From Saprospiraceae bacterium (GTDB taxonomy: Bacteria > Bacteroidota > Bacteroidia > Chitinophagales > Saprospiraceae): a stretch of 38,699 bases of DNA. The position numbers were made by a program, and so were the translations under genes. The stretch lies in contig JAEUUS010000345.1 of NCBI GenBank assembly GCA_016787545.1, forward strand, positions 1-38,699. Direction: 5' to 3'. Numbering within the stretch: the first letter of the stretch is position 1; the number at the start of each line of letters is the position of its first letter. Below, piece by piece: positions 444 through 36,480 of the stretch. The notes below the pieces were generated by a model, which did no database searches, was not told the origin of the DNA, and worked only from the letters and a program-made list of their open reading frames with translations.

Positions 444-623
444 TTATTAGTGTTTGAGTGTTTTGGTGTTTTAGTTGGCGTTCGGCTGGGTATTTAGTAG
501 GGCTGACGCCTATAAATTGCGTAACTACTGAGAATCCTTCTTACTATTCTCAGTAGTAATCCCCAGCCGAACGCCAACTAAAACACCCAAACACCAAAAC
601 ACTCAAACACTAAAACACTCAAA
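444..623. repeat. Nested inverted-repeat element, family A copy 1
   Basis: The outer arms (about 447-490 and 561-623) consist of degenerate 8-bp units GTGTTTTR/GTGTTTGR followed by the core TTGGCGTTCGGCTGGG; the right arm is the reverse complement of the left with one extra 8-mer. Inside the loop a second perfect inverted repeat pairs 524-535 (ACTACTGAGAAT) with 546-557. The right arm runs into the TGA stop codon of the LOG gene (619-621). The element fills the space between two convergent genes and could work as a bidirectional terminator. Copies occur at 30468-30690, 31303-31461 and, as one arm only, 32874-32930. Confidence 0.9.
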
Positions 624-1188
624 CCTGCCATTTATCCACTGCCCTGTATTCATAGGCTTCCATGGCATTGATTAAGTTTGGCACGGTGTCTGCGGCAATA
701 CACAGGCTTCTGTTTTCTGCTTTTAGGAAGCCGTTTTCCACCATATTGTCGAGCATATGGAGCAATGGATCATAATATCCCCGGGTACTGAGCAGGCCAA
801 TTGGTTTTTTATATTGATGTAGTTGAGCTAGGGTGAGCGCCTCAAAAAATTCGTCCATGGAACCAAATCCGCCGGGTAGTGTAATCACTCCGTCGGTTCC
901 ACGGATTAATAAATCTCTTCGTTCCGACATGGTTTCCACTACAATCATATCTTTAACACCGGGATGGCCGAGTTCCAGGCCGTTGAGTTGATGGGTGATA
1001 ATGCCTGTAATAGGTCCGCCTTCTGCCAAAACAGCATCGGCAATTACACCCATTAGCCCCACACTGCCTCCGCCAAACACCACCCGAATGTTCCGCTGGG
1101 CCAGCATTTTTCCCAATTCGGCGGCGGCTTCGGCAAACCATGGATGGAAGCCCTTATTGGCCCCACAATACACTGCAACTGATTTCAT
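619..1188 (-). CDS. LOG family protein (nucleoside 5'-monophosphate phosphoribohydrolase, TIGR00730 type)
   Basis: A 189-residue Rossmann-fold protein. The N-terminus MKSVAVYCGAN is the usual first strand of the family, so I start at the ATG ending at 1188 rather than 11 codons upstream. The nucleotide-binding loop GGGSVGLMG is at residues 40-48. The family signature PGGxGTxxE appears as PGGFGSMDE (105-113), with Ser in place of Thr and the catalytic Glu kept, and an ERRD segment near 90 holds the usual active-site Arg. Known members cleave the N-glycosidic bond of nucleoside monophosphates to release ribose 5-phosphate and a base, including cytokinin activation in plants; the substrate here is unknown. 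It diverges from the lipoprotein gene at 1255, and its stop codon lies inside repeat family A. Confidence 0.9.
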   Translation of the reverse strand: MKSVAVYCGANKGFHPWFAEAAAELGKMLAQRNIRVVFGGGSVGLMGVIADAVLAEGGPITGIITHQLNGLELGHPGVKDMIVVETMSERRDLLIRGTDGVITLPGGFGSMDEFFEALTLAQLHQYKKPIGLLSTRGYYDPLLHMLDNMVENGFLKAENRSLCIAADTVPNLINAMEAYEYRAVDKWQV

Positions 1189-1254
1189 AGAAGAGGATTT
1201 GAAAGTTGAATTTTCACGCAAACCTCGGATTTTTTCTCATAAACCGATTTACTC

Positions 1255-2556
1255 ATGAACCAATTCCGTATTCTGATTTTTTTGTTGGTCCTGGCTGGCC
1301 TGTATTCCTGCGAAAAAATCATCATTCCACCCGCTCCGAATCCGGTATTTGAATTAACCGTACAAAACGATTTTTTTGAAGTTCAGTCCAAATATGCCTT
1401 GTTCCTTTCAAATGAAGAAGGGGAGCTAAAAGCCTTTCGCTGGCTACCCAGTGAAGATACTGCACATATTCAGGTGCCTGGCAGTACCCCGGAGGATCGG
1501 TTTGATATTACTCTGTTGAAAATCACCACTTTAGAAGCGCCGGGCTCAGGAGTAAAAGACACCTCCCTTACGCTCACCACTTATACACAGGTAGCAAGCG
1601 GGCGAAGGATCCATTTAAGAGATTTGTATTTCCATCAGGTATCCACATTGCGTTTTTCGTTGACCGGGTTTACTACCCTGGATTCCATCGTAGTGTCAGA
1701 TGCGCTCACACTTTCGAGGCCTCAGGCACTCAATAATTATTACGGAGAATATTTGGTGAACAACACCGGGAGGTGCTGGATGAGGGTATTGGTGAATGGA
1801 GAACCTTTTTGGCGTTTTCTGACCTTCAACAATATGGGAGAAGTGGTAGATGCAAATACCATAGATGTATCCACACAGTTTTTGGGCAATTTTTCACCGC
1901 CTCTTACCCTCGGGTTCCCGTTTGTCACTACCTGGCAATATAAACTGGATGGGGTAGTTGACAGCTCAAAACTGGAGTTTTTCCCCTTGTCTGAACATAT
2001 CAGGGCCCCGGGCGGTGAGATTCCGGTGTACGATTCCAGAAAAGTATTTGAACCAGTGAACAACGACCAATTTGATCCAAACCGGCCATATATCGATCTT
2101 TTCCGACTGAATGCATCAGGCCCAATCGGGACAGCCAACGGATACACCTATCATATAGATCAGTTTTTTCCGGCAGTTCCCTCAAGTCTGCCAGAACCAA
2201 CGTTTGATCTGGAAGCGACCACCTTGTCAAATAACCGGGCTGTTGCAGTAACCTGTATCGGTCAATTCGATGTACTCTCCTTTTCCAGGTCACGAACCAC
2301 AACACCCAATATCCATTGGGAAGTCATTACAAAACCAGCCAATGGGTCGGTTTTATACATTTTACCGGATGTGCCTGAAGCATTAGGACAACTTTATCCG
2401 GCTTTAAAACAATATGAGTTCAACAATCAGGTTCAGGCCCGGGCAGATAACTTTCAAAAACTCAATTATGAGCAGGTTATCCAAAAAATGATGGACAATG
2501 CAGATCCCTTGTGGCGGGCAAGAGGTGTATATTTGGGAAGAGAAGAGCAGTTTTAA
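1255..2556 (+). CDS. Putative lipoprotein of unknown function
   Basis: 433 residues. The N-terminus has one hydrophobic stretch followed by LYSC with Cys19, a plausible signal peptidase II lipobox, so the mature protein should be lipid-anchored. I do not recognise a domain. Residues 30-130 look beta-rich with Thr/Ser-rich strands, compatible with a fibronectin- or carboxypeptidase-regulatory-like fold, but this is only composition. The C-terminal 60 residues are more helical and charged. The start lies 66 bases from the divergent LOG start. Downstream is the convergent ScyD/ScyE-like gene with a terminator between them. Its position gives no functional hint. Confidence 0.8.
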   Translation: MNQFRILIFLLVLAGLYSCEKIIIPPAPNPVFELTVQNDFFEVQSKYALFLSNEEGELKAFRWLPSEDTAHIQVPGSTPEDRFDITLLKITTLEAPGSGVKDTSLTLTTYTQVASGRRIHLRDLYFHQVSTLRFSLTGFTTLDSIVVSDALTLSRPQALNNYYGEYLVNNTGRCWMRVLVNGEPFWRFLTFNNMGEVVDANTIDVSTQFLGNFSPPLTLGFPFVTTWQYKLDGVVDSSKLEFFPLSEHIRAPGGEIPVYDSRKVFEPVNNDQFDPNRPYIDLFRLNASGPIGTANGYTYHIDQFFPAVPSSLPEPTFDLEATTLSNNRAVAVTCIGQFDVLSFSRSRTTTPNIHWEVITKPANGSVLYILPDVPEALGQLYPALKQYEFNNQVQARADNFQKLNYEQVIQKMMDNADPLWRARGVYLGREEQF

Positions 2557-2561
2557 TAAAA

Positions 2562-2597
2562 AAAGGCCCATTCTGTAAGGAAACAGAACAGGCCCAC
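2562..2597 (-). terminator. Rho-independent terminator of the ScyD-like gene
   Basis: A stem pairs GGCCCATTCTGT (2565-2576) with ACAGAACAGGCC (2583-2594) with a short loop and two mismatches. Read on the minus strand it is followed by eight or so T residues, the classical layout for ending the minus-strand gene whose stop codon is at 2624. On the plus strand no T-tract follows, so it would terminate the lipoprotein transcript poorly. Confidence 0.75.
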
Positions 2598-2623
2598 CGT
2601 GATGGAATCACCATTCCTAAGGC

Positions 2624-3904: not shown

Positions 3905-4001
3905 ATAAGGAATTGGTTTTAATTTTAATCATTTGCCTTTATATACGGCAATGGTTTTCTTTTGGATCATGAGCACACCATCAATAGGGTGTTTACCATA
4001 T

Positions 4002-4904: not shown

Positions 4905-4925
4905 CTTCCAGGAAAGTTATGGATA

Positions 4926-4972
4926 GAAAAAGCCCCATTTGTAACACCCAAAAGAGCATTGCTATGGGGCCT
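4926..4972 (-). terminator. Terminator/attenuator between the NTF2-like gene and cytochrome c
   Basis: On the minus strand a stem formed by GGCCCCAT and ATGGGGC encloses about 24 bases and is followed by TTTTTCT. It lies downstream of the NTF2-like stop (5017) and about 20 bases before the cytochrome start (4904). It either ends the upstream transcript or attenuates read-through into the cytochrome gene. Confidence 0.6.
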
Positions 4973-5016
4973 TTTCTCCGGGTTAGGATTTATGGCAAAA
5001 ACTGTTATCCTGGCAA

Positions 5017-5532: not shown

Positions 5533-5696
5533 AGTGAAATGAGTTTTAGAATGGTGAAAAATGGATGGCAGATGAGCTGCCGTGTCTTGTCTTTCATTTG
5601 ACACCACAAAAGTGCAGGCACACAGGAGGCTGTACCTTACGCAACCAAACGTAAAATGGCTACGCAGATCTGCGTATTTTCAGGAAATTAGAGGGA

Positions 5697-6329: not shown

Positions 6330-6345
6330 AGTTGAAAGAAAAGGT

Positions 6346-8277: not shown

Positions 8278-8374
8278 GGCGCATGATTTTTGAAGCTTGC
8301 CTTGAAAAACCGATGTAATGTAGAGAAAATCCTCAACCTGCAGTATATCCCAAATTTTTCCTGAATAAATATGG

Positions 8375-9319: not shown

Positions 9320-9320
9320 G

Positions 9321-9404
9321 AATGTGGGGAATGTGGTGGAATGTGGTTAATGTGGGGAATGTGGTGGAATGTGGTTAATGAGGGGAATGTGGTGGAATGT
9401 GGGG
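9321..9404. repeat. AATGTGG tandem repeat with 28-bp higher-order period (family E)
   Basis: Nine subunits of 9-10 bp (AATGTGGGG, AATGTGGTGG, AATGTGGTT) form three 28-bp higher-order repeats; the third has changes in its first and last subunits. It begins directly upstream of the tdh start codon, the final T of which is followed on the minus strand by no spacer. Similar in style to the other short-period elements of the window but without an obvious inverted partner. Confidence 0.9.
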
Positions 9405-12664: not shown

Positions 12665-12669
12665 TTCAT

Positions 12670-12802
12670 GAGAGCGTCTCAAAAGTAATTTTTACCGCGG
12701 AGTCGGAGAGGGAGCGTAAACTGAGTTAACTGAGAGTCTCACTTTGAGTGAGACTCTCAGTTAACGCTCCCTCTGCGTCTCTCCGCCTCCGCGGTAAAAA
12801 AA
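12670..12802. repeat. Nested inverted-repeat element, family G copy 1
   Basis: Outer arms carry AATTTTTACCGCGGAGTCGG (from 12688) and its near-complement ending CCTCCGCGGTAAAAA at about 12800, built from CGGAGAG/CTCTCCG units. Inside, a perfect 18-bp inverted repeat pairs 12725-12742 with 12748-12765 around a 5-base loop. A TGAGAGCGTCTC flank precedes the left arm and is found again beside the second copy at 36376-36480. The element lies between convergent genes; the inner stem could end transcription in both directions. Confidence 0.88.
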
Positions 12803-12822
12803 AACAACTTGTGGGACAGTCC

Positions 12823-12851
12823 CTTTGTGACTTTAGTGACTTAGTGGTTTA
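12823..12851. repeat. Half element of the CTTAGTG repeat family (family I/J)
   Basis: The sequence CTTTAGTGACTTAGTGGTTT is one arm of the family seen as full inverted repeats at 33133-33242 and 22030-22150. Read on the minus strand it begins with TAA, the stop codon of the large T9SS protein at 12849-12851. Confidence 0.75.
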
Positions 12852-15800
12852 ATGACGGATCACACCCACTTTTTCCACCACTTTTTTACCATCCGGTCCT
12901 TGTACTTCGAGGAAATATAGTCCGGGAGCAAGTTGTTCCGGCAAATTCCATTGAAGTAATTCTCCATTGGCAAGTGCGTATTTGGTGAGTACGGTTTGTC
13001 CATTACTATTCACAAGGCGAATATTCAGCCATTGTCCGTCCCAATCAGCAAGGTCCAGATAGAGAACGCCTTGCGTTGGGTTGGGGAAAACCAGCAAATT
13101 TGCCGGAAGCGGGTGTACTTTATCCAATCGATCTTCTCCAGGGCGCTCCCCTGCAGGTGTTACACCGATTGGGCAATAGAACGTATTCAAATGTGCTTCC
13201 AGGAAAATTTGTGGCTCCAATCGGGAAACAATGTCGATAAAGGTCACATCAGCCTGTGCCGGGAGTTTATACCTGAATATTTCGGATTCCCCGTTGGCTA
13301 TGCTATCAGTAGTAGATTTAAACCTCACTGAATACATAGGAGAATAGTTAGGACTGCGCACCAGATATTCCCTGCCAGAATTTGGCGCTTCGTATGTGGA
13401 GTTATCTGTCGGATATATGGCAGTCATACCATCCGGAACCTGTATTGCCGTGTAAATCAAGCGGTTAGAACAATTATTTGTTACCCTTACCCGATAGGTT
13501 CTGTTCTTTTCTGCATCTGCGGTAATAGTGAGCAGTTCGTATTTCAGGCAACCGGATAATTTCACATCACAGGGTTCTTCTTCCCGTACGGTTACCACAA
13601 AGCAGCAGGATGATGACTGTCCACAACTGTCGGTTGCCACCCAACATACTGGTGTGCTGGTTACGGGAAATACACTTCCGGAAGGCAGGCCAGCGCTTAA
13701 ATTCAAGGCTACGCCCGGGCAGGGACAATCTGTTGCGGCAACAGGCATCGGGTAATTCACTACCGTTGGGCCAGTACCGGGGATAGTGACTAAGCTTACA
13801 TTATTGGGGCAAAAAATTCCCACATTGGAAGGAGCCGGTGTAAGTGAAACCAACGTGTAGGTTGCAATGGTATCACATCCGGTTGTTGCGGGCAGGTTAA
13901 GGATTACCGTTGTCGGCTGGGTATAATTTACGCCGCCGAGCGTAACTGTTTCGCCAGGACAAAACTGAATGGTTCTGCTGACGGTTGGTTGCTGCAACAA
14001 GCTCAAAACGTAGGTACCCAGCGTATCGCATTCATCGCCCTGACCTTGCAGAGTGAGGTTAACCGTTGCGGGCGCCGTGTACGTTTGGCCGCCGAGTACG
14101 ATCGTTTCGCCGGGGCAAAGCGAAACTGGTTGCGTAAATGTTTCCTGAGGCAGTAATCGTAGGATATAAGTTGCCAGTGTATCGCAGGCATCGCCCTGGC
14201 CGGCAAGGGTAAGGTTCACGGAGGTTGGAGCGGTATAGGTTTGACCTCCCAGCGAAACCGTTTCACCCGGGCAAAGCGGAATATTTTCCGTGATGGACAC
14301 CTGGGATTTTAGACTAAGTTCGTAGGTAGCCAGGGTATCGCAGGTGCCATTCAGGCCAGCAAGCGTAAGATTAACAGTAGCCGGAGCCGCGTATTGTTGA
14401 CCGCCGATCAAGGTCGTTTCACCCGGGCAAAGTGCAATATTTTGGGTGAAAGAAACCTGGGGTTTGAGCGTCAATTCGTAGGTAGCGAGGGTATCGCAGG
14501 CATCGCCCTGGCCAGCATGCGTAAGATTAACAATAGCCGGAGCCGCGTATTGTTGACCGCCGATCAAGGTCGTTTCACCCGGGCAAAGTGCGATATTTTG
14601 GGTGAAAGAAACCTGCGGTTTGAGGGTTAGTTCATAGGTAGCGAGGGTATCACAGGCGCCGTTTTGACCAGGGTTAAGTACATTGACTACATTAGGCGCA
14701 AAGTAGGAAAATCCACCAATTAGTATACTTTGATCAGGGCATAACGGGATAAATGTATTGGTTACTACCTGATTTTTAAGGATTAATTCATACACAAATG
14801 ATGTATCACAGGCTCCATTAATACCTGGATGTATAAAATTCAAACTTGCCGGAGCAGTATAACTCTGACCTTCTATTAAAGTAGTATCGCCGGCACAAAG
14901 CGCGATGGTATTTTCAACCAATACTTTATTACCGAAATCAGAGAAAAACCCATAACGACAGCCTGTTGTCACGCCTCCATTTAAAAAGCCCATTTGGAAC
15001 AGTCCTTGCGAATTGGACACCACTGAAGACTGCCCTGCAGTAATGACATTATTTTCAAAAGAGATAGCGGCAGCTACAAACTCACCGCCTGAACCTGGAA
15101 CAACCTGAAAGCTTCCTGGTAAAATCAGGTTGGGGTTGCCATTTAGCACAAAACCATCCTGGAACCCATTTCGTGTAGTTAGAAACAGGTGGAAAGGTTC
15201 TGCTGTAGAACGTACAAACCGAACGGCATTGGAACCACTGCAATCCAATGCAGGCATGATTTCACCTGCAACTTCGCAATTATGTCCGGTCATTTGCCAT
15301 ACATAGGCCGGTGAGGATGTTTCAATCATGTGTGGGCCTGCTGTCACCGATAAATTTGCCATTTGTCCGGCATTCAGGTTTGGAGCCACCACAACACCAT
15401 CCATTTTCACTTGTGTGCCGTTTTCTGTTGCAAGTACAAAAGCAAATTCATCTCCATTTAGCAGACCTTTTTGAACGACATAACGAGTACCTAATTTATC
15501 CACCGGAACCATTTGGTCTGCCATAACATCACGACAAAAGCCTCCAAATAGCCAGCCACTTTCCAACAAATCGTCTTTAATAGTAACGGCAATTGGTTTA
15601 TCAGACACAATTTTAGTCCCGGTTGGGTGTTGGTTGCCTAAGTGGCTGGATGCCTCACCCGACCAGGTTTGTCCACGATTCAGGGTAATATTAAACGAAA
15701 CATTTGCCGGATGCCCAACTATTGCTCGGGTTGGAGTGATCGTTACCGTTGTATTGTTTTCGGAAGCAACAATATCAAACGCAGATTTTGGAAATGGCGT

Positions 15801-17343: not shown

Positions 17344-18900
17344 ATGTCAAAAATCCTTTGGGCCGACGACGAAATTGATCTCCTGAAACCACACCTGATG
17401 TTCCTTCAAGGCAAAGGATATGAGGTTGTTACCGCCACAAATGGCTACGATGCTGTGGATTTATACACTGAGCAGGCATCAGATATTGATGTGGTGTTCC
17501 TGGACGAAAGTATGCCCGGACTTACGGGACTGGAAGTGCTGATGAAAATCAAAGCGCTAAACCGAAATGTGCCGGTGGTCATGATTACTAAAAATGAGGC
17601 TGAACATGTAATGGAAGACGCCATTGGCGGACAAATTTCAGACTACCTCATCAAGCCCGTAAACCCAAATCAGATTCTGCTGACCCTGAAACGAATCTTG
17701 GACAACAAGCGTCTGCTGAGTGAAAAAACTGCCCAGAATTACCAACAGGAATTCCGTGAAATCTTCATGGAAATTACTGGCGGATTAGATCAAAACCAAT
17801 GGGTGGAGGCCTATAAAAAAATTGTAAACTGGGAAATGCGCGTAGATGCCAATCAGGCTACAGGGGTGAGTGAAATCCTGTCGCAGCAAAAAGAACAGGC
17901 CAACACAGAATTTTCCAAGTTTGTCACTAAAAACTACTTTGACTGGGTAGACCGTACAAAAGAGGTTGGGCCAATTATGTCGCATTCCATGATGCGAAAA
18001 CATATTTTTCCGCACATCGGCAATGGCGTGCCAACCATAGTGGTACTGCTGGATAATCTGCGGTACGACCAATGGAAAACCATTGAGCCAATTCTGAACG
18101 AGCAATTTCGGACAGAGAATGAGGGCTACTTTTTCAGTATTCTGCCCACAGCCACCCAGTACAGCAGAAATGCCATTTTTGCCGGAATGATGCCTTCTGA
18201 AATTGAGAAAAATTTCCCCGACAAATGGAAAAATGATACGGATGAAGGTGGGAAAAACCTGTTTGAGGACTTTTTCCTGGGCAAGCAAATTGAGCGCTCA
18301 TTCCGAAAACCGGTGAAATGGGATTATGTAAAAGTAACCAATGTCAATCACGGTAAAGAGCTGAACGACAATATATTACATTACATGAACAACGATGTAA
18401 CAGTGATCGTGTACAACTTTATCGACATGCTCTCTCATGCGCGCACAGAGATGGAAGTACTCAAGGAACTGGCTGGTGACGAGCGTGCCTATCGTTCACT
18501 CACCCGCTCCTGGTTCCTGCACTCCCCTCTTTGGACGGCTCTTCAGAAACTGGAAGGTCGTGATGTACAGCTGTTTGTAACCACCGACCATGGTACCATC
18601 CGGGTACAAAGTCCTTCCAAAGTGGTTGGTGATCGTGAAACCACCACCAACCTACGTTACAAAGTGGGCAGAAACCTTCAATATGAAGCTCGTGATGTGC
18701 TGGCCATCAAAGATCCACTCAAGGCAGGCTTACCTCGTCCGAATATCAGCAGCACGTTCATTTTTGCGAAGGAAGACTATTTCTTCCTCTACCCAAATAA
18801 CTACAACCACTACCACAATTATTACCGAAACACCTTCCAACACGGCGGTATCAGCTTAGAAGAGATGATTTGTCCGGTAGTACGAATGAGAAGTAAGTAG
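17344..18900 (+). CDS. porX: PorX, T9SS response regulator with PglZ domain
   Basis: 518 residues, the usual PorX length. A CheY-like receiver (1-120) has Asp8/Asp9, phospho-acceptor Asp54 in VVFLDESMPG, Thr in VVMITKN and Lys in DYLIKPV. After a helical linker, residues about 205-518 form an alkaline-phosphatase-like PglZ domain with VVLLDNLRYDQW, TQYSRNAIFAGM and TTDHGTIRVQSP, which should carry metal-binding residues. PorX works with the kinase PorY and an ECF sigma factor to control T9SS genes, and its PglZ domain is reported as a nucleotide phosphodiesterase. T9SS cargo genes lie in the same window, but no secretion machinery genes do. The TAG stop codon is the first triplet of a family C repeat. 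Confidence 0.95.
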   Translation: MSKILWADDEIDLLKPHLMFLQGKGYEVVTATNGYDAVDLYTEQASDIDVVFLDESMPGLTGLEVLMKIKALNRNVPVVMITKNEAEHVMEDAIGGQISDYLIKPVNPNQILLTLKRILDNKRLLSEKTAQNYQQEFREIFMEITGGLDQNQWVEAYKKIVNWEMRVDANQATGVSEILSQQKEQANTEFSKFVTKNYFDWVDRTKEVGPIMSHSMMRKHIFPHIGNGVPTIVVLLDNLRYDQWKTIEPILNEQFRTENEGYFFSILPTATQYSRNAIFAGMMPSEIEKNFPDKWKNDTDEGGKNLFEDFFLGKQIERSFRKPVKWDYVKVTNVNHGKELNDNILHYMNNDVTVIVYNFIDMLSHARTEMEVLKELAGDERAYRSLTRSWFLHSPLWTALQKLEGRDVQLFVTTDHGTIRVQSPSKVVGDRETTTNLRYKVGRNLQYEARDVLAIKDPLKAGLPRPNISSTFIFAKEDYFFLYPNNYNHYHNYYRNTFQHGGISLEEMICPVVRMRSK

Positions 18901-19160
18901 ACTTGCGACCTACGACTTGCCAAAACGCTGATGTCTACTTGTTACCCTGAGCATAGCGAAGGGTCTGATATCCAATTTTTCCCGCGCATCGTTTGGTAGA
19001 GATCGTTTCCCTGATCCTGACCGGACATTTTTTTCTTCCAATACCCTGGAGCGAGGCTTCGCCGGTCCCTTCGCTACGCACAGAGTGAAAAAGAAACCCC
19101 AGTTTTTTCGTAAATCGTAAATCGCAAATCGCAAATCGCAAATCGCAAATCGTAAATCAA
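18896..19160. repeat. Nested inverted-repeat element, family C copy 1
   Basis: Outer parts are 7-bp units: left AGTAGACTTGCGACCTACG at 18896-18919, right AAATCGCAAATCGCAAATCG within 19108-19159, which is a diverged complement. Inside, TTACCCTGAGCATAGCGAAG (18943-18962) pairs imperfectly with CCCTTCGCTACGCACAGAGT (19067-19086). The left edge is the TAG stop of porX (18898-18900). Minus-strand reading frames through it encode DLRFAIC-type peptide repeats and should not be annotated as genes. Confidence 0.85.
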
Positions 19161-22000: not shown

Positions 22001-22029
22001 TCGACCGAATTTTCCGGGGGCTACAAAGG

Positions 22030-22150
22030 TGTTAAAACCACAAAGGCATAGCGGACACAAAGATTAAGTTTCTTCAGTGTTCTCCGTGCCTTTGTGGTTT
22101 TTATACCTATGTAATTCCCCTGCTTAGTGCCCTCTATTCCTTTGTGGTTC
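22030..22150. repeat. Inverted-repeat element of the CTTTGTGG family (family I/J)
   Basis: Arms TTAAAACCACAAAGGCA (22032-22048) and TGCCTTTGTGGTTTTTA (22087-22103) pair almost perfectly around about 38 bases. A third half-arm, CTTAGTGCCC...CCTTTGTGGTTC, follows at 22123-22150. It lies between convergent genes (stops at 22000 and 22186) and could serve as a terminator. Confidence 0.8.
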
Positions 22151-22185
22151 AAGTTAAGTTATGGTAAACCTGCTCCATTGTCAAA

Positions 22186-23532: not shown

Positions 23533-23534
23533 AA

Positions 23535-24413
23535 TTATATAAGCTCACCAATGTGTATTTCAATGCCATGTACCATTTTGCCTAACGGAAGGTCGTTTTC
23601 ATCTGCGCCGAACGGCTCTTCAATTTCTTCTGCAATCAGTTCCAAACTGGCCAATACATAGAAAATAAAACCTACAATTGGGATGACCCAATAACCCAGA
23701 TTGAACACGAAGCCAAATGGCAGGGTCACCACATAAAACAGCACGAATTTTTTAATAAACACGCTGTAGGAATACGGAATCGGGGTGTTTTTAATACGCT
23801 CACAAGCCCCGCAGATGTCTGTAAATGACTGAAGTTCAGCATTGAGAAACAACAACTGTTCTCCGCTGATTTTTTTGGAAACAAGCATATCATTGGCTTT
23901 GAACATCATGAGTGATGCCAGTTGATTTGGCAGGTGTTTTTCCAAATCAATTCGACGCTGCAGGGCTCCTGGAATATCGTCGAACAATTCCAGTCGGGTT
24001 TCTTCGGTGCGCAAGTGGTTTTTGAGCAGCAAGGCATATTTCGGGATCGCTTTTTCAAAAAATTGTCGGTCGGGATCCCCGGCAGGCAACATAGCGGCAA
24101 GTTTCATAGCCAGATTTCGACTGTTATTCACCAGTGCTCCCCACAGCTTTCGCCCCTCCCACCAGCGTTCATAGGCGGTATTGGTGCGAAATACCAGCAA
24201 AAAGGAAATGACAAAACCCAAAAGGGTATGCATGATGGAGATGTTCCGAATGTGGCTTTTCTCACTCAGTTGCCACACCTCCATCTCCAACCAGGCAACC
24301 AGACCTGAATAGGCACAAACGACCAATATCCAGGGAAATAGTCGCCGAACGGTATCGGAACGGTGAAAATGATACGGCCATACAAACCAGGCCTTGGGAT
24401 CGTGTGCTATCAT
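23535..24413 (-). CDS. Bestrophin family ion channel
   Basis: 292 residues from the ATG ending at 24413; the open frame upstream is only repeat and the overlapping cyclase tail. The N-terminal helix is followed by the first transmembrane segment (FPWILVVCAYSGLVAW), then HTLLGFVISFLLVFRTNTAYERWWEGR, the hallmark of bestrophin/RFP-TM proteins (Asn-Thr-Ala-Tyr-x-Arg-Trp-Trp). IPYSYSVFIKKFVLFYVVTLPFG includes the second conserved pore segment, and EIEEPFGADENDLPL is the acidic cluster of the calcium clasp region. Family members are pentameric anion, or in some bacteria cation, channels. It is the middle gene of the cyclase-bestrophin-kinase operon, and its start codon lies in family D repeat. Confidence 0.92.
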   Translation of the reverse strand: MIAHDPKAWFVWPYHFHRSDTVRRLFPWILVVCAYSGLVAWLEMEVWQLSEKSHIRNISIMHTLLGFVISFLLVFRTNTAYERWWEGRKLWGALVNNSRNLAMKLAAMLPAGDPDRQFFEKAIPKYALLLKNHLRTEETRLELFDDIPGALQRRIDLEKHLPNQLASLMMFKANDMLVSKKISGEQLLFLNAELQSFTDICGACERIKNTPIPYSYSVFIKKFVLFYVVTLPFGFVFNLGYWVIPIVGFIFYVLASLELIAEEIEEPFGADENDLPLGKMVHGIEIHIGELI

Positions 24414-24468
24414 GGACGGTAGACGGTGGACGGTGGACGGTTGACGGTGCCTATCGTCCATCGTCCAC
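24411..24468. repeat. Family D repeat between cyclase and bestrophin genes
   Basis: Degenerate 7-bp units GGACGGT (24415-24449) are followed by inverted units TCGTCCA (24454-24467) across a short loop TGCCTA. Read on the minus strand, it contains the cyclase stop codon (24451-24453) and the last few cyclase codons. It ends with CCGTCCATG, whose ATG is the bestrophin start. The same unit occurs inside the FadH-like gene at 34381-34446. Confidence 0.9.
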
Positions 24469-26838
24469 AATAAAGTACATATCCACCTGCCCTTTGTTGT
24501 GCACATCTTTTTGCCCACGGTGTTCGGCCAGGTAGAGGTGTTTGACGGCTTCGGCGGTGGCGCCGGAGATATTGACACGGCCGGGTTCGCCGTGTTCTTC
24601 GAGGCGGGCTGCCAGGTTTACGGCATCGCCCCAGATATCGTAGGCAAATTTGTTTTTACCGATAACACCCGCCATTACAGGGCCGGTGTGGATGCCTATT
24701 CGCATTTCGGTGAGAAAGGAATCAGGGTGCGCTTCGCGGCGGTTTTTCAACCATTCTGCCATTTCCAACGCCGCGCGTACGGCATCGGCGGCATGGGTAT
24801 CATTAGGAATTGGCAAACCTCCCGCACACATGTACGCGTCGCCAATGGTTTTGATTTTTTCTAATCCGTGGCGCTCACAAATTTCATCAAAAGCCAAAAA
24901 ACACTCATTGAGCTCGTCAATCAATTGCCCCGGGGTAAGCCTGGCTGAAAGGCTGGTGAAGTTGACAAAGTCGCTGAACAGCACCGTTGCCGACTCGTAC
25001 AGTCGTGGGGTAGCCTGTCCGCTGCTTTTCAGTTCGGCGGCAATTTCTTCCGGCAGGATATTGCGCAGAAGGACATCACTTTTTTGTTTTTCTGCTTCGA
25101 TTTCGAGTTTTTGCGCCTGAATTTGCCGGTTTTGGCTCTCTACTCTTCGTTTAGATCTGCGGGTGAACCACCAGGAGATACCCACAACCAGCAACACCAC
25201 AAACAAGGCCAGTCCGAGAATATAGGCAACCCGGCGGAAATTGGCTTCCTGTTCTGTCTGATAAGCCTGTTCCCGTTGGATACGTTCCAGTTCCTGGGCG
25301 CGTCGGGTGCTGTCAGCCTGGTTTTGTGCTCTTTCAATCTGTTCTTTTTCCCGCAATTCCAGGATTACACGATTTTGTTTTTCTGCGTCGAGTTGTTGCG
25401 CAGCCAGACGGAGTTGCTGGCGGGCCTGCAGGGCTTGAAGGGTTTGTTCGCGGAGCTTGGCCTGGTCGGCATCTTTCTGTGCCTCCAGAAGCCGGACCTC
25501 ATCTTCTTTTCGCCGGGCTTCCAGTTCCAGGTTTTTGTTTTGCAATTCCAGACGTTCCCGCTCGTATTTCACCTGATTCAATTCCAGATCCTTGAAATTT
25601 TGCCGGGCAATCAGGAATTTAATTTGTCCTTCAGCAGCAGAAAGGAGCGCGCGTTGTTGGGTCAGGCGTTGTTCTTTGGTTTGATCTTCCCGCCGTATTT
25701 CGTCCAGTACATTCAGGTATTCCCGGTAATATTCAAAGGCTTTTTCAAAATCGTAGAGATCGTGGTACAAATCCGCGCCGGTGCGATAAGCTTCAGCGAG
25801 TACCTGCTTTTGTTTGGTCTCGGAAGCATACTGAATGGCTGTTTGGTTGTGTGACAGGGCGTTATAAATGTCGTTGCTGCTGAAATACACCGTTGCCATC
25901 AGGTGTTCCAGATTGGCCAGCGCCGCATAATCCTTTCTGGAAATCAGGAGTTTTTGCGCTTTTAGCAGGTATTCTATACCTCTTTTGGATTCGCCGGTAT
26001 TATGCAAGGCAATGCCCATATTAGCCCATAATACCTCCGGATATTCGCAAGGGATGTAGCTGCATTGCATTTCAGCCTTTCGGAAATACTCCAGCGCCTT
26101 GGGATAATCCTGGAGGCTGACATATTGCCGACCAAGATTGTTGTATAGCAAGGATTGCTCCTGCGTAGTACCTGCTGTTTCAATAATATCCTGAAGCAGC
26201 AGATAATAATAGAGACTTTTTCCTGCATCGCCGGCGGCATCGTAAGCGCGGGCGCGTTTTTGGTAAATTTGGACTAAACGGGGGTTGTTGCCTTCTTCTT
26301 TAAACTTGTAAATCAAGTCTTTATACAGTATTTCGGCACTGTCAAACCGCATGTCAAACAAACAGGCATCGGCTGCTTTTTCCCGGGTGTCAAAATCCTC
26401 CGGGCGCAAGGCAAGGACTTCGCGGTAATATCGGCGTGCGGAGGCATACAGCTTTTCCCCAAAAAACAGGTCGCCAATAGCAGTTTTGACATTTAGTTGC
26501 AGGGTTCGGTTGCCTGCATTTTCGAGTTTGGCTTCCGCCTCTAAATAATACTGGAGGGCTTCCTGCGGTCGATCGGTGCGGACAAAAACTTCGCCTAACA
26601 AAATAGACGCGCGAATGATGCCGCCATCGTACCGCAGACTTCTGGCCATGGAAAGACTGCGATTGGCCAGGTCTTCCCGCTGTGAGTCGCTATGGGAGCG
26701 TTTTGCCTGCTCTAAAATTTCGTCTACTTCTACTGTATTGCGCTCAATTTCATCCAGTGGCTGGGCGAAAATGGCTGGTGTATTGCCAAAAAGCAAGCAA
26801 CACAGTAAAAACAGTCTTGCGATCATGAATGGATTCAC
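24451..26838 (-). CDS. TPR adenylate cyclase (class III)
   Basis: 795 residues; an ATG four codons downstream (26826) is an alternative start. After a signal peptide (to about 25), residues 30-390 form TPR helices, 395-535 a long Glu/Gln-rich coiled coil, then one transmembrane helix (YILGLALFVVLLVVGISWWF). The cytoplasmic class III cyclase domain (about 610-780) has metal-binding Asp in VLFSDFVNFT and KTIGDAYM. KIKTIGD and YDIWGDAVNLAARLE supply the Lys and Asp that select adenine and the transition-state Arg. It should make cAMP in response to a periplasmic signal. First gene of an operon with bestrophin (37 bases downstream) and the NtrY-like kinase. The last residues lie in repeat family D. 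Confidence 0.92.
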   Translation of the reverse strand: MNPFMIARLFLLCCLLFGNTPAIFAQPLDEIERNTVEVDEILEQAKRSHSDSQREDLANRSLSMARSLRYDGGIIRASILLGEVFVRTDRPQEALQYYLEAEAKLENAGNRTLQLNVKTAIGDLFFGEKLYASARRYYREVLALRPEDFDTREKAADACLFDMRFDSAEILYKDLIYKFKEEGNNPRLVQIYQKRARAYDAAGDAGKSLYYYLLLQDIIETAGTTQEQSLLYNNLGRQYVSLQDYPKALEYFRKAEMQCSYIPCEYPEVLWANMGIALHNTGESKRGIEYLLKAQKLLISRKDYAALANLEHLMATVYFSSNDIYNALSHNQTAIQYASETKQKQVLAEAYRTGADLYHDLYDFEKAFEYYREYLNVLDEIRREDQTKEQRLTQQRALLSAAEGQIKFLIARQNFKDLELNQVKYERERLELQNKNLELEARRKEDEVRLLEAQKDADQAKLREQTLQALQARQQLRLAAQQLDAEKQNRVILELREKEQIERAQNQADSTRRAQELERIQREQAYQTEQEANFRRVAYILGLALFVVLLVVGISWWFTRRSKRRVESQNRQIQAQKLEIEAEKQKSDVLLRNILPEEIAAELKSSGQATPRLYESATVLFSDFVNFTSLSARLTPGQLIDELNECFLAFDEICERHGLEKIKTIGDAYMCAGGLPIPNDTHAADAVRAALEMAEWLKNRREAHPDSFLTEMRIGIHTGPVMAGVIGKNKFAYDIWGDAVNLAARLEEHGEPGRVNISGATAEAVKHLYLAEHRGQKDVHNKGQVDMYFIVDDGR

Positions 26839-26860
26839 GACGCGAAGAAAAGGAATTTTT

Positions 26861-26904
26861 ACTTACGACTTACGATTTACGACCTACGACTTACGATGTG
26901 ATTT
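26861..26904. repeat. Family C short repeat, copy 2
   Basis: Five or six 7-bp units of the form ACGACTT/ACGATTT lie in the divergent gap between the cyclase start (26838) and the four-helix-bundle gene (26973). It is a single-orientation copy without visible inverted partner. Any promoters for the two genes must lie in or next to it. Confidence 0.85.
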
Positions 26905-26972
26905 GTGTTTGGGAGGGGTTGATAAGTTGGATTTTTTTAATAACTTTTGAAATAATTAAACGCTTAACCCAG

Positions 26973-27332
26973 ATGAAACCAGACCAGTGGAACCAAAGGT
27001 TCAAATGCTTTGCTATTGCCATCATCAATCTTGTCAGACAATTTCCCCGGGATTCGGCTTATTGGACTATTGGAAGGCAATTAATTGATGCAGCAACTTC
27101 TTCGGCAGCAAATTACAGAGCCGCCAAAAGGGCAAAATCATCCAGGGATTTTATCAACAAGCTAAAAATTGTTGAAGAGGAATTGGATGAAAGTATGTTC
27201 TGGTTAGAACTTACGGTAGGGGTATCAGAAGCCTGGAGAGCCACTGTTGCTCCCCTTTACAAAGAAGCAAATGAATTATTATCCATTACCATTGCGTCCA
27301 TTAAAACTGCCCGCAACAAACAATCATCCTAA
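26973..27332 (+). CDS. Four helix bundle protein (S23/TIGR02436 family)
   Basis: 119 residues from the ATG at 26973; the open frame before it is repeat-derived. The pattern FKCFAIAIINLVRQFPRD, GRQLIDAATSSAANYRAAKRA and FINKLKIVEEELDESMFWLEL is the classical S23 family, first known from intervening sequences in 23S rRNA genes. Members are small oligomeric bundles, and one relative, Avd, binds nucleic acid in diversity-generating retroelements. No reverse transcriptase or variable repeat is present here, so this is a stand-alone copy of unknown role. Its TAA stop is the first triplet of a family C repeat that separates it from the convergent gene. Confidence 0.92.
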   Translation: MKPDQWNQRFKCFAIAIINLVRQFPRDSAYWTIGRQLIDAATSSAANYRAAKRAKSSRDFINKLKIVEEELDESMFWLELTVGVSEAWRATVAPLYKEANELLSITIASIKTARNKQSS

Positions 27333-27389
27333 GTCGCAAATCGTACATCGCAAATCGTACATCGTAAGTCGCAAGTCGTAAGTCTACTT
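27330..27389. repeat. Family C short repeat, copy 3
   Basis: The whole 51-base space between two convergent genes, plus both stop codons, is this repeat: 7- to 8-bp units such as AAGTCGCAAATCGTACATCG at 27331. The left end contains TAA of the four-helix-bundle gene. The right end, read on the minus strand, contains TAG of the 27384-28910 gene in the string AAGTAGACTTACGAC. PorX ends in nearly the same string. Confidence 0.9.
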
Positions 27390-30463: not shown

Positions 30464-30467
30464 GGGT

Positions 30468-30690
30468 GAGTGTTTTAGTGTTTTGGTGTTTGAGTGTTTT
30501 AGTGTTTTGGTGTTTTAGTGTTTTGGTGTTTTAGTTGGCGTTCGACTGTGTGTTTAATAAGACTGCCGCCATGGAAAGGGAGCTTTTTGAATCTTCCCAT
30601 TATCGTACTACCCACTCAAGGCGCAGCCTTAAGAATCGCCCAACCGAAAGTCAACTAAAACACCAAAACACTAAGGCACCAAAACACTCA
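30468..30690. repeat. Nested inverted-repeat element, family A copy 2
   Basis: The left arm (30468-30550) has about nine 8-bp GTGTTTTR units and the core TTGGCGTTCGACTG. The right arm (30638-30690) is its shorter complement. The inner pair is imperfect (AAGACTGCCGCC near 30560 against AAGGCGCAGCCTT near 30618). It starts 4 bases upstream of the DUF1501 start codon and fills most of the divergent gap to YceI. Confidence 0.88.
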
Positions 30691-30774
30691 AAAAAAATTA
30701 AGTGTTTCAACAACTAAATTCAAAACACCGTGTTTAGTGTGTATTCAATTTCAACAATCCTATTTTTCAACATC

Positions 30775-31305
30775 ATGGCAACTACGAACTGGAATCTCGA
30801 CTCCGCACACTCTGAAGTTACTTTCAAAGTAAAACACCTGGTTATTTCTACTGTTTCAGGTCAATTCAAGCAGTTTTCTTCTGCAGTTTCTACCGAAGGC
30901 GACGACTTTACTCAGGCACAAATCAAATTTGACATCGATACCAACTCTATCGATACCGGCATGGAAATGCGCGATAACCACCTGCGTGGCGACGATTTTT
31001 TTAATGCTGAAGCATTTCCAACGCTTCAATTCGTGTCTACCGGCGTACGTTCACTCGGCGGTTCCGACTACGCCATCGACGGCAATCTGACTGTCCGCGA
31101 CGTAACCAAACCCATCACCCTCAAAGCCGAATTTGGCGGTATCGCGGTAGATCCATACGGCCAAACCAAGGCTGGTTTTGAGGTAGAAGGCAAAATTAAC
31201 CGCCAGGAATTCAACCTCACCTGGAATGCCCTCACCGAAGCCGGCGGCGCCGTTGTTTCCGACGAAGTGAAATTCCAGGCTAATGTGCAATATGTCAAGG
31301 GTTAG
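30775..31305 (+). CDS. YceI family protein
   Basis: 176 residues from the ATG at 30775 (MATTNWNLDSAHSEVTFKVKH), which is the canonical YceI beginning without signal peptide. VSGQFKQFSSAV, SIDTGMEMRDNHLRGDDFFN, FPTLQFVST and LTVRDVTKPITL are all conserved family blocks of this lipocalin-like barrel. Homologues bind isoprenoid-type lipids such as polyprenyl chains; a cytoplasmic version like this one may bind or carry such lipids or quinones. It is oriented opposite to the DUF1800 and DUF1501 genes and bounded by family A repeats on both sides, and its TAG stop (31303-31305) is the first triplet of one of them. Confidence 0.93.
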   Translation: MATTNWNLDSAHSEVTFKVKHLVISTVSGQFKQFSSAVSTEGDDFTQAQIKFDIDTNSIDTGMEMRDNHLRGDDFFNAEAFPTLQFVSTGVRSLGGSDYAIDGNLTVRDVTKPITLKAEFGGIAVDPYGQTKAGFEVEGKINRQEFNLTWNALTEAGGAVVSDEVKFQANVQYVKG

Positions 31306-31461
31306 TGTTTTGGTGCTTTAGTGTTTTGGTGTTTTGGTTGGCGTTGGGCTGGGTAGCTCACGGGGCAAAAGCCCTTTTTCCAATTATTTTTCCAAGAAGG
31401 CTTTGCCCCGTGAGTCACCCAACCGAACGTCAACCAAAACACTAAAACACCAAAACACTAA
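31303..31461. repeat. Nested inverted-repeat element, family A copy 3
   Basis: The element occupies exactly the space between two convergent genes and includes both stop codons (TAG of YceI at 31303, TAG of DUF1800 at 31458-31460). The outer arms run about 31303-31354 and 31414-31461, with GTGTTTTGG units and TTGGCGTTGGGCTGGG. The inner arms CTCACGGGGCAAAAGCC (31357-31373) and GGCTTTGCCCCGTGAG (31399-31414) pair with one bulge. The inner sequence is unrelated to that of copy 1 although the outer arms match. Confidence 0.92.
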
Positions 31462-32873
31462 CAAACCTGATACTCCGGTGTCGCCATCAACTGAATGATG
31501 GTGGATTGGATGCGATCAGCTTTGGTTTGGTGTTGTGTGTGTGCTTCTACTACTGATTTAGGGAGGTTTTTTGTGCGTACTGACCACAAAAAACCTCCTA
31601 TTTTTTCCATCAAATCCTGTTCCGGCACCTGACTGAACATATCCATGGCGGGTTTCCAGTCGATGTCTGCCGTGAGGCGTCGGTTGATGCCTCGGCCAGT
31701 TTGTCCCATCTGCTGATCATCGTCGGCTTTGCCCTGAACATCCAGTTCCTGATTGAGGTAAATCAATTGCGGAATGCGCAGGCGCAACATCAGTGAACTA
31801 CTGTCGATCCAGTTTTTTCCGCCCGCCCAACCAGCCACATTGGGTGGGTAAAACAGTATCTGCCCCAGCGCTTTTTGTAGCATCAGCTGACTTTCCGGAT
31901 CGGCCAGTTCCATAGGTAACGTGCGCCGGATACCTACCCACAAGGCTACCGGCGATTTGATCAGGCAGCCCCGGTTTTCGGGTGCATAAAACCAGTCGGA
32001 TCGGGCAATATCTTCCAGAATGCGCATGATTTTGTAGCCGGAGTCGTAAAAGCGATCGCCCAGCCACCGGATGCGATCTTCCGGGATATGTTGTTCGTTC
32101 ACTAAAAAACGGTACAATTTCCGGGCAATGAACCAGGCCGTTTCCCGCTTCTCCAGCAGCATATCCAATACTTCATCCCCGCCAAAAGCGCCGGTTTTCC
32201 CGAAAATGGTTTTGTTCCCCGTATCGTGATCCCATTTGCGAAATACAAATTCGCCATCCAGCCGGTGGTTCCAGCCGGTAAAGGCCCGGGCAGCTTCTTT
32301 GATATCGTTTTCTGTGTAGTTCCCCCGGCCCAGGGTGAACAGTTCCATCACTTCCCGGGCAAAATTTTCATTGGGATGCTGTTTCTTGTTCTGCTGGTTG
32401 TTCAAAAACGAGATCATGGCTGCCGATTTCGAAACGCCTCGCAGCAAATCCCCGAAATTGCCCAGCGCCTGTTCGCGGATCACCGCCAGTAATTGTTGCT
32501 GGTACAGGATATTGATGTTCCGACTGGCAAAATGTCCGTGCCAGAATAAGGCCATTTTTTCCCGCAACTGCGCCTTGGTGTGGGTCATTTCTTCCAGCCA
32601 TAGCAGGTTCAGGTTCTGCAAATCTTCTTTGCTCTGTTTTCGTAATGCCTTCCGCTGTTCCTTATCCAGCTCCCGGCGCTCCATTTTGCCCAATTCGCCC
32701 ACCCCCATCAATAGCCCTTTTACGGCATTATCCGCCACATCAAAATGTTGCGGCGCCGCCAACGATTCATCGCGCAGCTTGGGCCACCACACCTCCTGCG
32801 GCAACGCCGACCAGGCTGTCCAACTTTTGGTTCGCGGACCAAATCCAAATCGCCAAAGCAAATGGTGAAGCAT
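31458..32873 (-). CDS. DUF1800 family protein
   Basis: 471 residues. The opening LHHLLWRFGFGPR is the family start, followed by LREKMALFWHGHFASRN and NENFAREVMELFTLGRGNYTENDIKEAARAFTG, the diagnostic block of DUF1800. The C-terminal half includes NVAGWAGGKNWIDSSSL. No clear signal peptide is visible, unlike the partner DUF1501 protein. The role of the pair is unknown; it is widespread in Bacteroidota and Planctomycetota. The ATG is immediately preceded by a half copy of repeat family A, and the stop codon is inside another copy. The gene should be followed by DUF1501 but is interrupted by YceI. Confidence 0.92.
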   Translation of the reverse strand: MLHHLLWRFGFGPRTKSWTAWSALPQEVWWPKLRDESLAAPQHFDVADNAVKGLLMGVGELGKMERRELDKEQRKALRKQSKEDLQNLNLLWLEEMTHTKAQLREKMALFWHGHFASRNINILYQQQLLAVIREQALGNFGDLLRGVSKSAAMISFLNNQQNKKQHPNENFAREVMELFTLGRGNYTENDIKEAARAFTGWNHRLDGEFVFRKWDHDTGNKTIFGKTGAFGGDEVLDMLLEKRETAWFIARKLYRFLVNEQHIPEDRIRWLGDRFYDSGYKIMRILEDIARSDWFYAPENRGCLIKSPVALWVGIRRTLPMELADPESQLMLQKALGQILFYPPNVAGWAGGKNWIDSSSLMLRLRIPQLIYLNQELDVQGKADDDQQMGQTGRGINRRLTADIDWKPAMDMFSQVPEQDLMEKIGGFLWSVRTKNLPKSVVEAHTQHQTKADRIQSTIIQLMATPEYQVC

Positions 32874-32930
32874 GTGTTTTAGTGTTTTAGTGTTTGAGTT
32901 TGGGAGTGTTTGAGTTGGCGTTCGGTTTGA
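32874..32930. repeat. Family A half element, copy 4
   Basis: Only one arm is present: GTGTTTTAGTGTTTTAGTG followed by further 8-mers and TTGAGTTGGCGTTCGG. It lies directly upstream of the DUF1800 start with no spacer. No inverted partner appears in the next 200 bases. Confidence 0.85.
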
Positions 32931-33132
32931 GGTTGTGGTGGAGGGTAGCCAGGATTCAGAATGACCTTGAACTTATTCACCCAAATCTAACCTAACCCCA
33001 ACCACGAAGTGCCCCCAACCCGACCACGAAGTGGTCTAACATAAATAGACTCGGGAAGGGAAGGAATGTTTAAGCATTAACGGAAATTTAAGGGATGGCG
33101 TATCTTTACAGGTGTGGAATGGTTAGAACGTA
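32931..33132. other. Intergenic region upstream of the FadH-like gene
   Basis: Part of a 413-base divergent gap. It contains a direct repeat of ACCACGAAGTG (about 33000 and 33024), the second copy forming a small hairpin GACCAC-GAA-GTGGTC (33022-33036). TATCTTTA near 33100 is one mismatch from the -7 consensus, but no -33 box fits. No gene is seen. Confidence 0.45.
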
Positions 33133-35338
<2,206 letters not shown>

Positions 35339-35413
35339 GCGGAAGGTCTGATGTGTGCTTTTTAACGCTTTTTACATATTTAGCCTTAATTGGCACCATC
35401 AACCTCTCCATAA

Positions 35414-36376
35414 ATGAAGAACAAGTTTTTATTTTTTTGCTACGGATTCCTACTGGCATCCATTTGGGGTGTCTGTTTCCTGGATTCAACAATGGCTGAT
35501 AAAGTAACCGCTGCCATGGGTTTGGCATTCACTTTTTTAAGCGCATATTTTTTACAGCGACAATATGGGTTTAGCTTAAGCAAAGTGGATAAGTGCATCG
35601 TTGCCCTATTTCCATTGATTTTCCTGATTGGATTATACAACTCCCTGATTGATTTTGGGTATTTTCGGTTCAAAATGTATAATTTTTCTGCTATTTTCCA
35701 GACAGTATTTTACTTACAAATAATTAATCCTGGTCTGATAGCATTTATAACCTTGGTTTTAGGACTTACATGGCTCAAAGACCTCCGGAATCCGGCCAAT
35801 GTTTTTGTATTTAGCTTTATTACCTTGTTTTATTCCTACCTTTTTATGTATGAGTGGAAATTACGTTGGCATGACGGTAAAAGAATTAATTTCGATACAG
35901 AAGCGCAAGCCAGCAATAGCGTAATAAAGACAAATGATCAGGAACTCAACCATAACATCAACCTGGCCAATTTTGCCTTTATCAATGCTACCTTGGATAC
36001 CGTTTCGCTGTTGGACAACGCGGATAAATACATTCTTTTGGAGACATGGGCAGAAACTTGTGCGCCATGCAGAAAAGCAATGCTTGAAATGCCTTCTTTT
36101 TATCAGTCGGTAGCAGATAAGTTGTCGGTATTTTATGTGTATGAAAACCGGAAAGCGAGTGTCAGAGATAATTTTGAGCAGATTTTTTCTTTTAAGGAAA
36201 TCAAGGATACATCAAGGATTGTCATTGATATTGAACAGGAATTGTATCATGCGTTGGGTATGCAGGGGTATCCCTATTTTTTGCTATTTGATGCTAAGGG
36301 TAATCTGATCCTTCATATCCAGGGCTATGGTAATAAGGATAACATTGCGGCGAGAATAGCTGTGCATCTGAAATGA
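35414..36376 (+). CDS. Membrane protein with C-terminal thioredoxin-like domain
   Basis: 320 residues. About five hydrophobic segments (roughly 5-22, 31-48, 59-80, 95-120, 128-147) are followed by a TlpA/thioredoxin-like domain from about 183. YILLETWAETCAPCRKAML has the redox-type CAPC motif (Cys216, Cys219), and QGYPYFLLFDAKGNL provides the cis-Pro loop (Tyr-Pro). It is probably a periplasmic disulfide reductase or cytochrome-maturation-type protein, though the membrane part is not one I recognise. It is 75 bases downstream of the FadH-like gene on the same strand, so could be cotranscribed. It converges on a T9SS cargo gene across family G copy 2. Confidence 0.8.
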   Translation: MKNKFLFFCYGFLLASIWGVCFLDSTMADKVTAAMGLAFTFLSAYFLQRQYGFSLSKVDKCIVALFPLIFLIGLYNSLIDFGYFRFKMYNFSAIFQTVFYLQIINPGLIAFITLVLGLTWLKDLRNPANVFVFSFITLFYSYLFMYEWKLRWHDGKRINFDTEAQASNSVIKTNDQELNHNINLANFAFINATLDTVSLLDNADKYILLETWAETCAPCRKAMLEMPSFYQSVADKLSVFYVYENRKASVRDNFEQIFSFKEIKDTSRIVIDIEQELYHALGMQGYPYFLLFDAKGNLILHIQGYGNKDNIAARIAVHLK

Positions 36377-36480
36377 GTTTTTTACCGCGGAGGCGGAGAG
36401 GCGCGGAGAGTTTGACAATCAATTATTTACACCTCTGCGTCTCTCCGCTTCTGCAGTAAAAATTACTTAAGAGACTCTCA
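36376..36480. repeat. Inverted-repeat element, family G copy 2
   Basis: The left arm GTTTTTTACCGCGGAGGCGG (36377-36396) continues as AGAGGCGCGGAGAG. The right arm CTCTGCGTCTCTCCGCTTCT (36433-36452) continues as GCAGTAAAAATTACTT and ends GAGACTCTCA at 36480. The last triplet, read on the minus strand, is the TGA stop codon of the 36478-37377 gene. The inner hairpin seen in copy 1 is missing; the loop is only about 22 bases. Confidence 0.88.

Follow-up and report, generated by a model that had tools for sequence, protein, structure and literature searches.

Palindromic tandem-unit arrays in a Saprospiraceae genome and their likely relation to small genes enclosed by inverted arms

To our knowledge, no function is known for the four-helix-bundle (4HB) proteins of the S23 or intervening sequence (IVS) family; solved relatives of the Avd/S23 fold form pentamers. 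In the IVS of 23S rRNA, an open reading frame (ORF) of the S23/PF05635 family lies within a stem that takes the place of a tetraloop and that RNase III cleaves (PMC4990558). Here we examine palindromic repeats in a 38,699-nt stretch of a Saprospiraceae genome (contig JAEUUS010000345.1 of assembly GCA_016787545.1; "the window" denotes the whole of it) and an element within it in which a 4HB gene lies between inverted arms of tandem heptads. A first-pass annotation had noticed that several unrelated repeat families of the window, among them A, C and G, share one nested-palindrome design, and had associated no gene with them; it missed the protein gene that family-C arms enclose at 26865-27384. 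We think it probable (roughly 0.6) that several of the palindrome families of the window are gene-less relatives of likely mobile hairpin elements, which carry a 4HB gene or, as is likely for family G, a GxxExxY nuclease-like gene, and whose arms are predicted to be bound by the encoded protein. The evidence consists of genes inside arms, a link between protein subfamily and arm unit, one site that occurs with the gene, without it and empty, and nested modules.

The closest described systems each share some of these properties. As far as the passage cited above goes, the 23S rRNA IVS has the same protein family, a gene between complementary stem-forming arms and a position at a former hairpin tip (PMC4990558), whereas the elements described here are intergenic, have arms of 7-11 bp tandem units, fall into many sequence families, have gene-less copies genome-wide and are nested. 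Repetitive extragenic palindromic (REP) sequences and REPINs with their REP-associated tyrosine transposases (RAYT, or TnpA-REP) likewise pair a small gene with a palindrome type specific to it, have further copies that lack the gene, and show co-inheritance of gene and palindrome, as portions of two reports portray them (PMC3733652, PMC6006769), but our elements are without a HuH/Y1 enzyme, the gene being 4HB or GxxExxY and the arms being arrays of tandem units. The gene-less derivatives resemble miniature inverted-repeat transposable elements in their inverted ends and perhaps in a short direct repeat at the flanks; unlike those, they have a gene-bearing partner without a known transposase, and their arms are degenerate arrays. 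The 4HB fold is shared with Avd of diversity-generating retroelements (DGRs; template modelling (TM) score 0.77-0.78 to 4dwl), yet neither a reverse transcriptase nor a variable repeat was seen beside the elements. Short tandemly repeated repetitive (STRR) sequences are intergenic heptamer repeats that are grouped with the TAACTGA repeats. The latter are also seven-base direct repeats between genes, Bacteroidetes included, but are mostly not inverted, and the section of the report drawn on here names no associated protein gene (PMC4679880). In the open-licence literature, we found no paper that ties 4HB (S23/IVS) proteins to inverted tandem arrays.

Inverted arms around 4HB genes

The 4HB gene of the window matches PF05635 (40.1 bits against a cut-off of 33.8 in Pfam, scanned as the longer frame 26829-27329) and TIGR02436 (65.6 against 24 bits in NCBIfam), and the Pfam and NCBIfam profile scans found no transposase domain in it. 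The nearest solved structures to its structure model (predicted local distance difference test, pLDDT, 96.3) are 2rld (TM 0.82-0.85) and 2gsc. The element lies outside rRNA genes, as no Rfam family was matched anywhere in the window and the neighbours are protein genes.

We called a gene armed when the 400 bp upstream aligned with the reverse complement of the 400 bp downstream at a score of at least 35. The genome to which the window belongs (G000, the own genome), like many of its relatives a draft, holds seven PF05635 matches that represent six distinct elements, because L004 and L005 are the same element found on two contigs. All seven lie between inverted arms (scores 40-248), and the arm sequences differ: GACGGT heptads at L001, family-A arms at L002, GGTCATTTAGG units at L003 (which also has an in-frame stop), AATGTGG nonamers at L004/L005, a long inverted repeat that is scarcely tandem at L006, and family-C arms at L007, the window's own element. 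Between L004 and L005 (contigs C375 and C178), the 4HB ORF is 97.7% identical (384/393) and the adjacent DUF3098 gene 83.8% (299/357), a contrast that could reflect either a strain mixture in the draft or an element moving between strains.

The 4HB family is present in at least 54 of 60 relatives. For a broader count, 60 stretches were chosen in E-value order among the relatives' matches listed, omitting places near contig starts; their 62 4HB places and the seven of the own genome, less one at a contig edge, gave 68. Within the genus, arms were found at 45 of the 46 4HB genes fetched, compared with 20 of the 558 remaining ORFs at these loci and 11 of 185 when controls were restricted to at most 200 amino acids. 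Judged by sequence, the 20 control ORFs that scored high include three GxxExxY-like genes and one GIY-YIG-like gene; others, tentatively named yceI, hisF and ftsA, lie between full palindromes. Across 144 4HB loci, a score of at least 35 was reached in 99 when the flanks were compared inverted, in 27 when compared directly, and in 29 when the downstream flank was shuffled. The best-fitting unit period among 50 armed elements was 7 or 14 in 27, 8 in 12, 9 in six, 10-11 in four and 6 in one, and the 5´ arm was G+T-rich in 46 of them.

Two side observations concern the same loci. Full palindromes of one family flank hisF-like genes in two genomes (L100:10757-11801 and L112:10924-11950), and a GTAGAGTACACC-like motif recurs in the 4HB elements of L096, L100, L112 and L122, inside the arms or between arm and gene.

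Protein subfamily, arm unit and the arrays of the window

The palindrome type is co-inherited with its associated gene, and this holds for the 4HB gene rather than for Y1 transposase genes. Similarity among 4HB proteins was correlated with 5-mer similarity among their arms (Mantel r 0.44, p 2e-4; maximum of 5000 permutations 0.165), a test that covered between-genome pairs of the 50 armed elements after removal of pairs sharing any neighbour gene within 4.5 kb. The same subfamily and unit recur at unrelated sites of different genomes, as at L001, L084 and L090 for GACGGT and at L002 and L120 for family A. GACGGT-subfamily relatives in named genomes (best 80 of 223, 77 usable) came from Saprospiraceae, Deltaproteobacteria, Nitrospirae, Omnitrophota, Clostridia, ANME-1/Methanophagales archaea and others. 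Arms were present in 25 of 32 Saprospiraceae-type loci (L138-L171), among them L157 of the cultured Flavilitoribacter nigricans, against 1 of 157 other ORFs, and in 24 of 45 other loci (L172-L217), against 11 of 234. With an arm threshold of 28 and at least two GGY-N4-GG required, the GGY heptad was counted in 21 of the 27 armed loci in the first group and in 28 of the 31 in the second, versus 7 of 45 armed elements from the remaining subfamilies. The GACGGT subfamily keeps its GGY heptad as far as Deltaproteobacteria and ANME-1 archaea.

The arrays of the window were scored against the arms of 23 GxxExxY and 50 4HB elements, with shuffled controls. The best matches were 4HB arms for family A (71; shuffled maximum 46), family C (58; 28), GACGGT (69; 28) and AATGTGG (83; 34), and the family-C array was best matched by the arms of the window's own 4HB element. 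Family G copy 2 was closest to the GxxExxY element L302 of the related genome G021. Genus GxxExxY genes (PF13366; 31 matches scored, 29 fetched and two own, of which 30 were usable) have arms in 23 of 30 cases versus 2 of 45 other ORFs, which makes them a second gene family with the same arrangement. Evidence from the own genome is thinner here, as two of its six matches are no more than short pieces and several sit at the ends of contigs. The idea that a single design points to a common process is supported, with arm families tied to 4HB subfamilies and family G to GxxExxY: one design would appear in unrelated sequences because each protein subfamily has its own arm unit.

Two further observations were made on these genes. 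A stretch of 1155 bp (35335-36489), comprising an ORF at 35414-36376 and family G copy 2, is absent from G021. Long palindromes of other types also enclose two short GIY-YIG-like genes (L343 and L075:3330-3635), and such genes are possibly a third family with this arrangement.

Orthologous sites and nested palindromes

The window and G021 align at ~80-89% except at the 4HB element, positions 26864 and 27385 of the window being adjacent in G021. The sequence TACTT, single in G021, flanks the element on both sides in the window and in G029. In G010, the site holds a gene-less hairpin of the same heptads; G026 has nothing recognisable there, and G034 ends at this point. At the L002 site, an open 4HB frame lies between family-A arms in the own genome and G029, G021 retains an internally deleted remnant that joins residues 3-24 directly to 82-122, and G010 and G034 have short palindromic spacers. 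Beside DUF3098, the own genome has a 4HB element, while G021, G034 and G026 have gene-less spacers that contain other modules. Around yceI, palindromes occupy the same places in the own genome, G021, G010 and G034, with one unit family per genome, and are absent from G026 and G007.

In family A, 8-bp degenerate units (TTTTAGTG, TTTTGGTG, TTTGAGTG) form inverted arms that are followed by the stem TTGGCGTTCGGCTGGG and a variable interior; the window holds three such copies and a fourth, nested one (copy 4 in Table 1), which the first-pass annotation did not list. The inner stems it had cited are exact (ACTACTGAGAAT at 524-535/546-557 and CTCACGGGGCAAA at 31357-31369/31402-31414). Its description of nested palindromes with tandem-unit arms stands for families A (8 bp) and C (7 bp), where the units are clear, and is weaker in two respects, as the units of G are faint and the outer arms of the gene-less C copy pair at only 72%. 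For two copies of A and one of G, RNA folding energies beat all dinucleotide shuffles, with z of -9.2 at 475-595, -12.3 at 31320-31450 and -10.6 at 12672-12802 (0 of 200 shuffles equal in each case).

A 22-base family-A pattern (GTGTTTKRGTGTTTKRGTGTTT) occurs 202 times in the genome, compared with 0 occurrences for the pattern reversed. Twenty-nine A sites were read among the matches listed (the first 100 of the 202). A palindrome score of at least 40 was found in 20 of the 29, against 39 of 300 windows drawn at random from loci of the genus, and a score of at least 60 in 15, against 25 of 300; nine sites appear unpaired, some of these at contig ends. Arms of 24 nt pair better with their own partner than with the arms of other copies (0.833 versus 0.778, p 0.0015). 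The suggested covariation of inner stems was not seen in the 14-nt stem adjoining the arms, which has no copy-specific pairing (within 0.758, between 0.745, p 0.24). In this test, 13 of 17 copies were anchored, and L287 and G021 copy 3, probably mis-anchored, were retained.

Interiors do differ between copies, in keeping with the claim that inner repeats are not conserved, but this is only part of the picture, since in the own genome a ACCACTAAGG palindrome lies inside 5 of the 29 A sites, including copy 4 of the window, and in none of 400 control windows. G021 copy 3 also holds the ACCACTAAGG palindrome, where window copy 3 has another stem, and G021 copy 2 holds the stem found in window copy 3. 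The shared palindrome and the swapped stems indicate that some of the inner stems that seemed not to be conserved are further modules of this kind. Mostly unpaired arms and random inner stems would have spoken against the shared design; the arms pair at 20 of the 29 sites, and the interiors are mixed.

Table 1. Palindromic arrays and the 4HB-bearing element in the window
Feature	Position	Strand	Evidence
Family A copy 1, gene-less nested palindrome	447..624		inverted repeats, folding
AATGTGG units, single array	9321..9404		83 to 4HB arms of L004 vs 34
Family G copy 1, nested palindrome	12670..12802		z -10.6; best arm match GxxExxY element, 26 vs shuffles 26
Family C gene-less copy, other sequence inside	18896..19160		arms 72% complementary; arm score 58 vs shuffled maximum 28
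ACCACAAAGG-type palindrome	22022..22149		inverted repeats; weak GxxExxY-arm match, 28 vs 26
GACGGT heptads, single array	24413..24449		69 to 4HB arms of L090 vs shuffled maximum 28
TACTT, left copy of 5-bp direct repeat	26860..26864		present once at the empty G021 site, twice in the window and in G029
4HB-bearing element, heptad family C, 520 bp including arms	26865..27384	+	BLAST of window vs G021 breaks exactly at 26864/27385
Left arm, heptads ACGACTT/ACGATTT	26865..26899		inverted repeat, 85% complementary
4HB gene, 119 amino acids, PF05635/TIGR02436	26973..27332	+	profile matches, structure model
Right arm, heptads TCGCAAA/TCGTACA/TCGTAAG	27334..27384		inverted repeat
TACTT, right copy of 5-bp direct repeat	27385..27389		same comparison of G021, window and G029
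Family A copy 2	30467..30692		G021 counterpart has other interior, other unit variants
Family A copy 3	31303..31466		interior of G021 counterpart is ACCACTAAG palindrome
Family A copy 4, degenerate, around ACCACTAAGG palindrome 33135-33241	32873..33272		inverted repeats
GACGGT heptads, single array, in frame within coding sequence	34406..34442	reverse	59 vs 29
Family G copy 2	36364..36480		matches arms of GxxExxY element L302, 45 vs shuffled maximum 24; stretch absent from G021

Some features of the window stand apart. The GACGGT array at 34406-34442 reads as a 12-residue linker between two domains of an ORF (33182-35335) resembling a flavin mononucleotide (FMN) oxidoreductase. A 33-bp near-perfect palindrome without tandem units lies at 37495-37562, and the DUF3098 spacer of G021 has a module like it nested inside. 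A large ORF (12849-16283) contains a repeat of period 156 bp at 14011-14828. Inside the gene-less family-C copy, CCCTGAGCATAGCGAAGGG occupies 18945-18963, with similar stretches in L183, L201 and L206. GIY-YIG genes were considered as the source of the CCCTGAGC..GAAGGG stretch in this copy (18896-19160) and rejected, because the genome's short GIY-YIG gene (L343) sits between other palindromes.

Alternative explanations, a proposed mechanism and implications

A Y1 transposase had been offered as a shared driver of the palindromes. In a REP/RAYT-like process, such an enzyme would copy them in trans with the 4HB gene as a passenger, and REP elements, on the evidence of the portions of PMC3733652 and PMC6006769 used here, are a known precedent. 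The genome has five PF01797 matches, and palindromes lie beside all four that were inspected, but these are REP-like palindromes of their own without tandem-unit arms, no exact 12-mer of the four occurs in the window, and the arm unit tracks the 4HB subfamily. We therefore abandon the Y1 gene as shared driver and consider this account quite improbable. Spread through RNA by a reverse transcriptase, as in DGRs, where Avd assists one, seems to us very improbable. The 4HB protein does have an Avd-like fold, and PF05635 is described as resembling Avd in an excerpt of PMC10053308, but the own genome has no PF00078 match, an absence that is uncertain because the genome is only 86.67% complete. Given the lack of a PF00078 match and Y1 genes with other palindromes, neither is an obvious enzyme source.

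It is also conceivable that there is no element at all, and that fork slippage and template switching make or convert palindromic arrays between which 4HB and GxxExxY genes survive by chance. The yceI flanks, where several species have palindromes in matching positions and each species a single unit family, would fit this, as would G021 copy 3, which differs from the window in one arm and the interior only, as after partial conversion. We still think it unlikely, given armed 4HB genes in 45 of 46 cases versus 20 of 558 other ORFs, a subfamily-unit link that extends to unrelated sites and across phyla, and the absence from G021 of the whole element together with one TACTT. If, instead, the function lay in the RNA, the arms would be long stems cut by RNase III, the 4HB protein would bind its own transcript, and mobility would be incidental. 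The very stable RNA folding agrees with this, the fold is that of Avd, which occurs in the DGR ribonucleoprotein, and rRNA IVS with the same protein family are stem-flanked and RNase III-cut, to judge from the cited part of PMC4990558. However, gene-less copies are numerous, site content varies between close species and the window contains no Rfam family, and we regard an RNA function as rather improbable.

Several results weigh against the interpretation that the palindromes are relatives of mobile hairpin elements. For GxxExxY arms, family G copy 1 (26 versus 26) and the ACCACTAAGG and ACCACAAAGG arrays (25 versus 23 and 28 versus 26) score at or barely above shuffles. The G021 site may be a precise deletion between TACTT repeats rather than an ancestral empty site, because the corresponding position in G010 carries a related hairpin, and this is the only site at which a 5-bp flanking repeat was compared. 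At the same position, G017 has another family and a run of N. Shared intergenic sites carry different palindrome families in different species, which could reflect hot spots or conversion in place rather than transposition, and palindromes can likewise flank host genes (yceI, hisF, ftsA) on either side. Among the other families of the order, arms were found at only 6 of 22 4HB genes, so that they are either not obligatory there or too degenerate. The Avd match has a Foldseek E of 0.09-0.19, the net charge of the 4HB proteins is only +2 at the median and uninformative, and G000 is a draft of 741 contigs.

If the palindromes do descend from mobile hairpin elements, the 4HB protein, with its Avd/S23 fold, may bind the unit array in a single-stranded hairpin, and host replication or repair might subsequently copy the hairpin to another location, where a short stretch of the target would be duplicated. 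The tips of existing hairpins would often be the target; gene loss would make gene-less forms and, together with repeated insertion, could yield nested palindromes. Template switching, which the first-pass annotation had suggested, is compatible with this model and would be part of it. More tentatively, and at odds that we would put below even, there could be a class of transposase-less mobile elements in bacteria and archaea, in which an Avd-like 4HB protein recognises its own short tandem unit in the arms of a hairpin and causes the host's replication to copy that hairpin into others, at their tips. The protein would co-evolve with its unit, and the rRNA IVS would be a branch that settled in ribosomal hairpins.

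If the link between 4HB subfamily and arm unit holds, many unexplained intergenic palindromes could be assigned to named gene subfamilies. The arm unit of each 4HB protein would be a ligand open to testing, and the movement of rRNA intervening sequences would become testable in their intergenic relatives.

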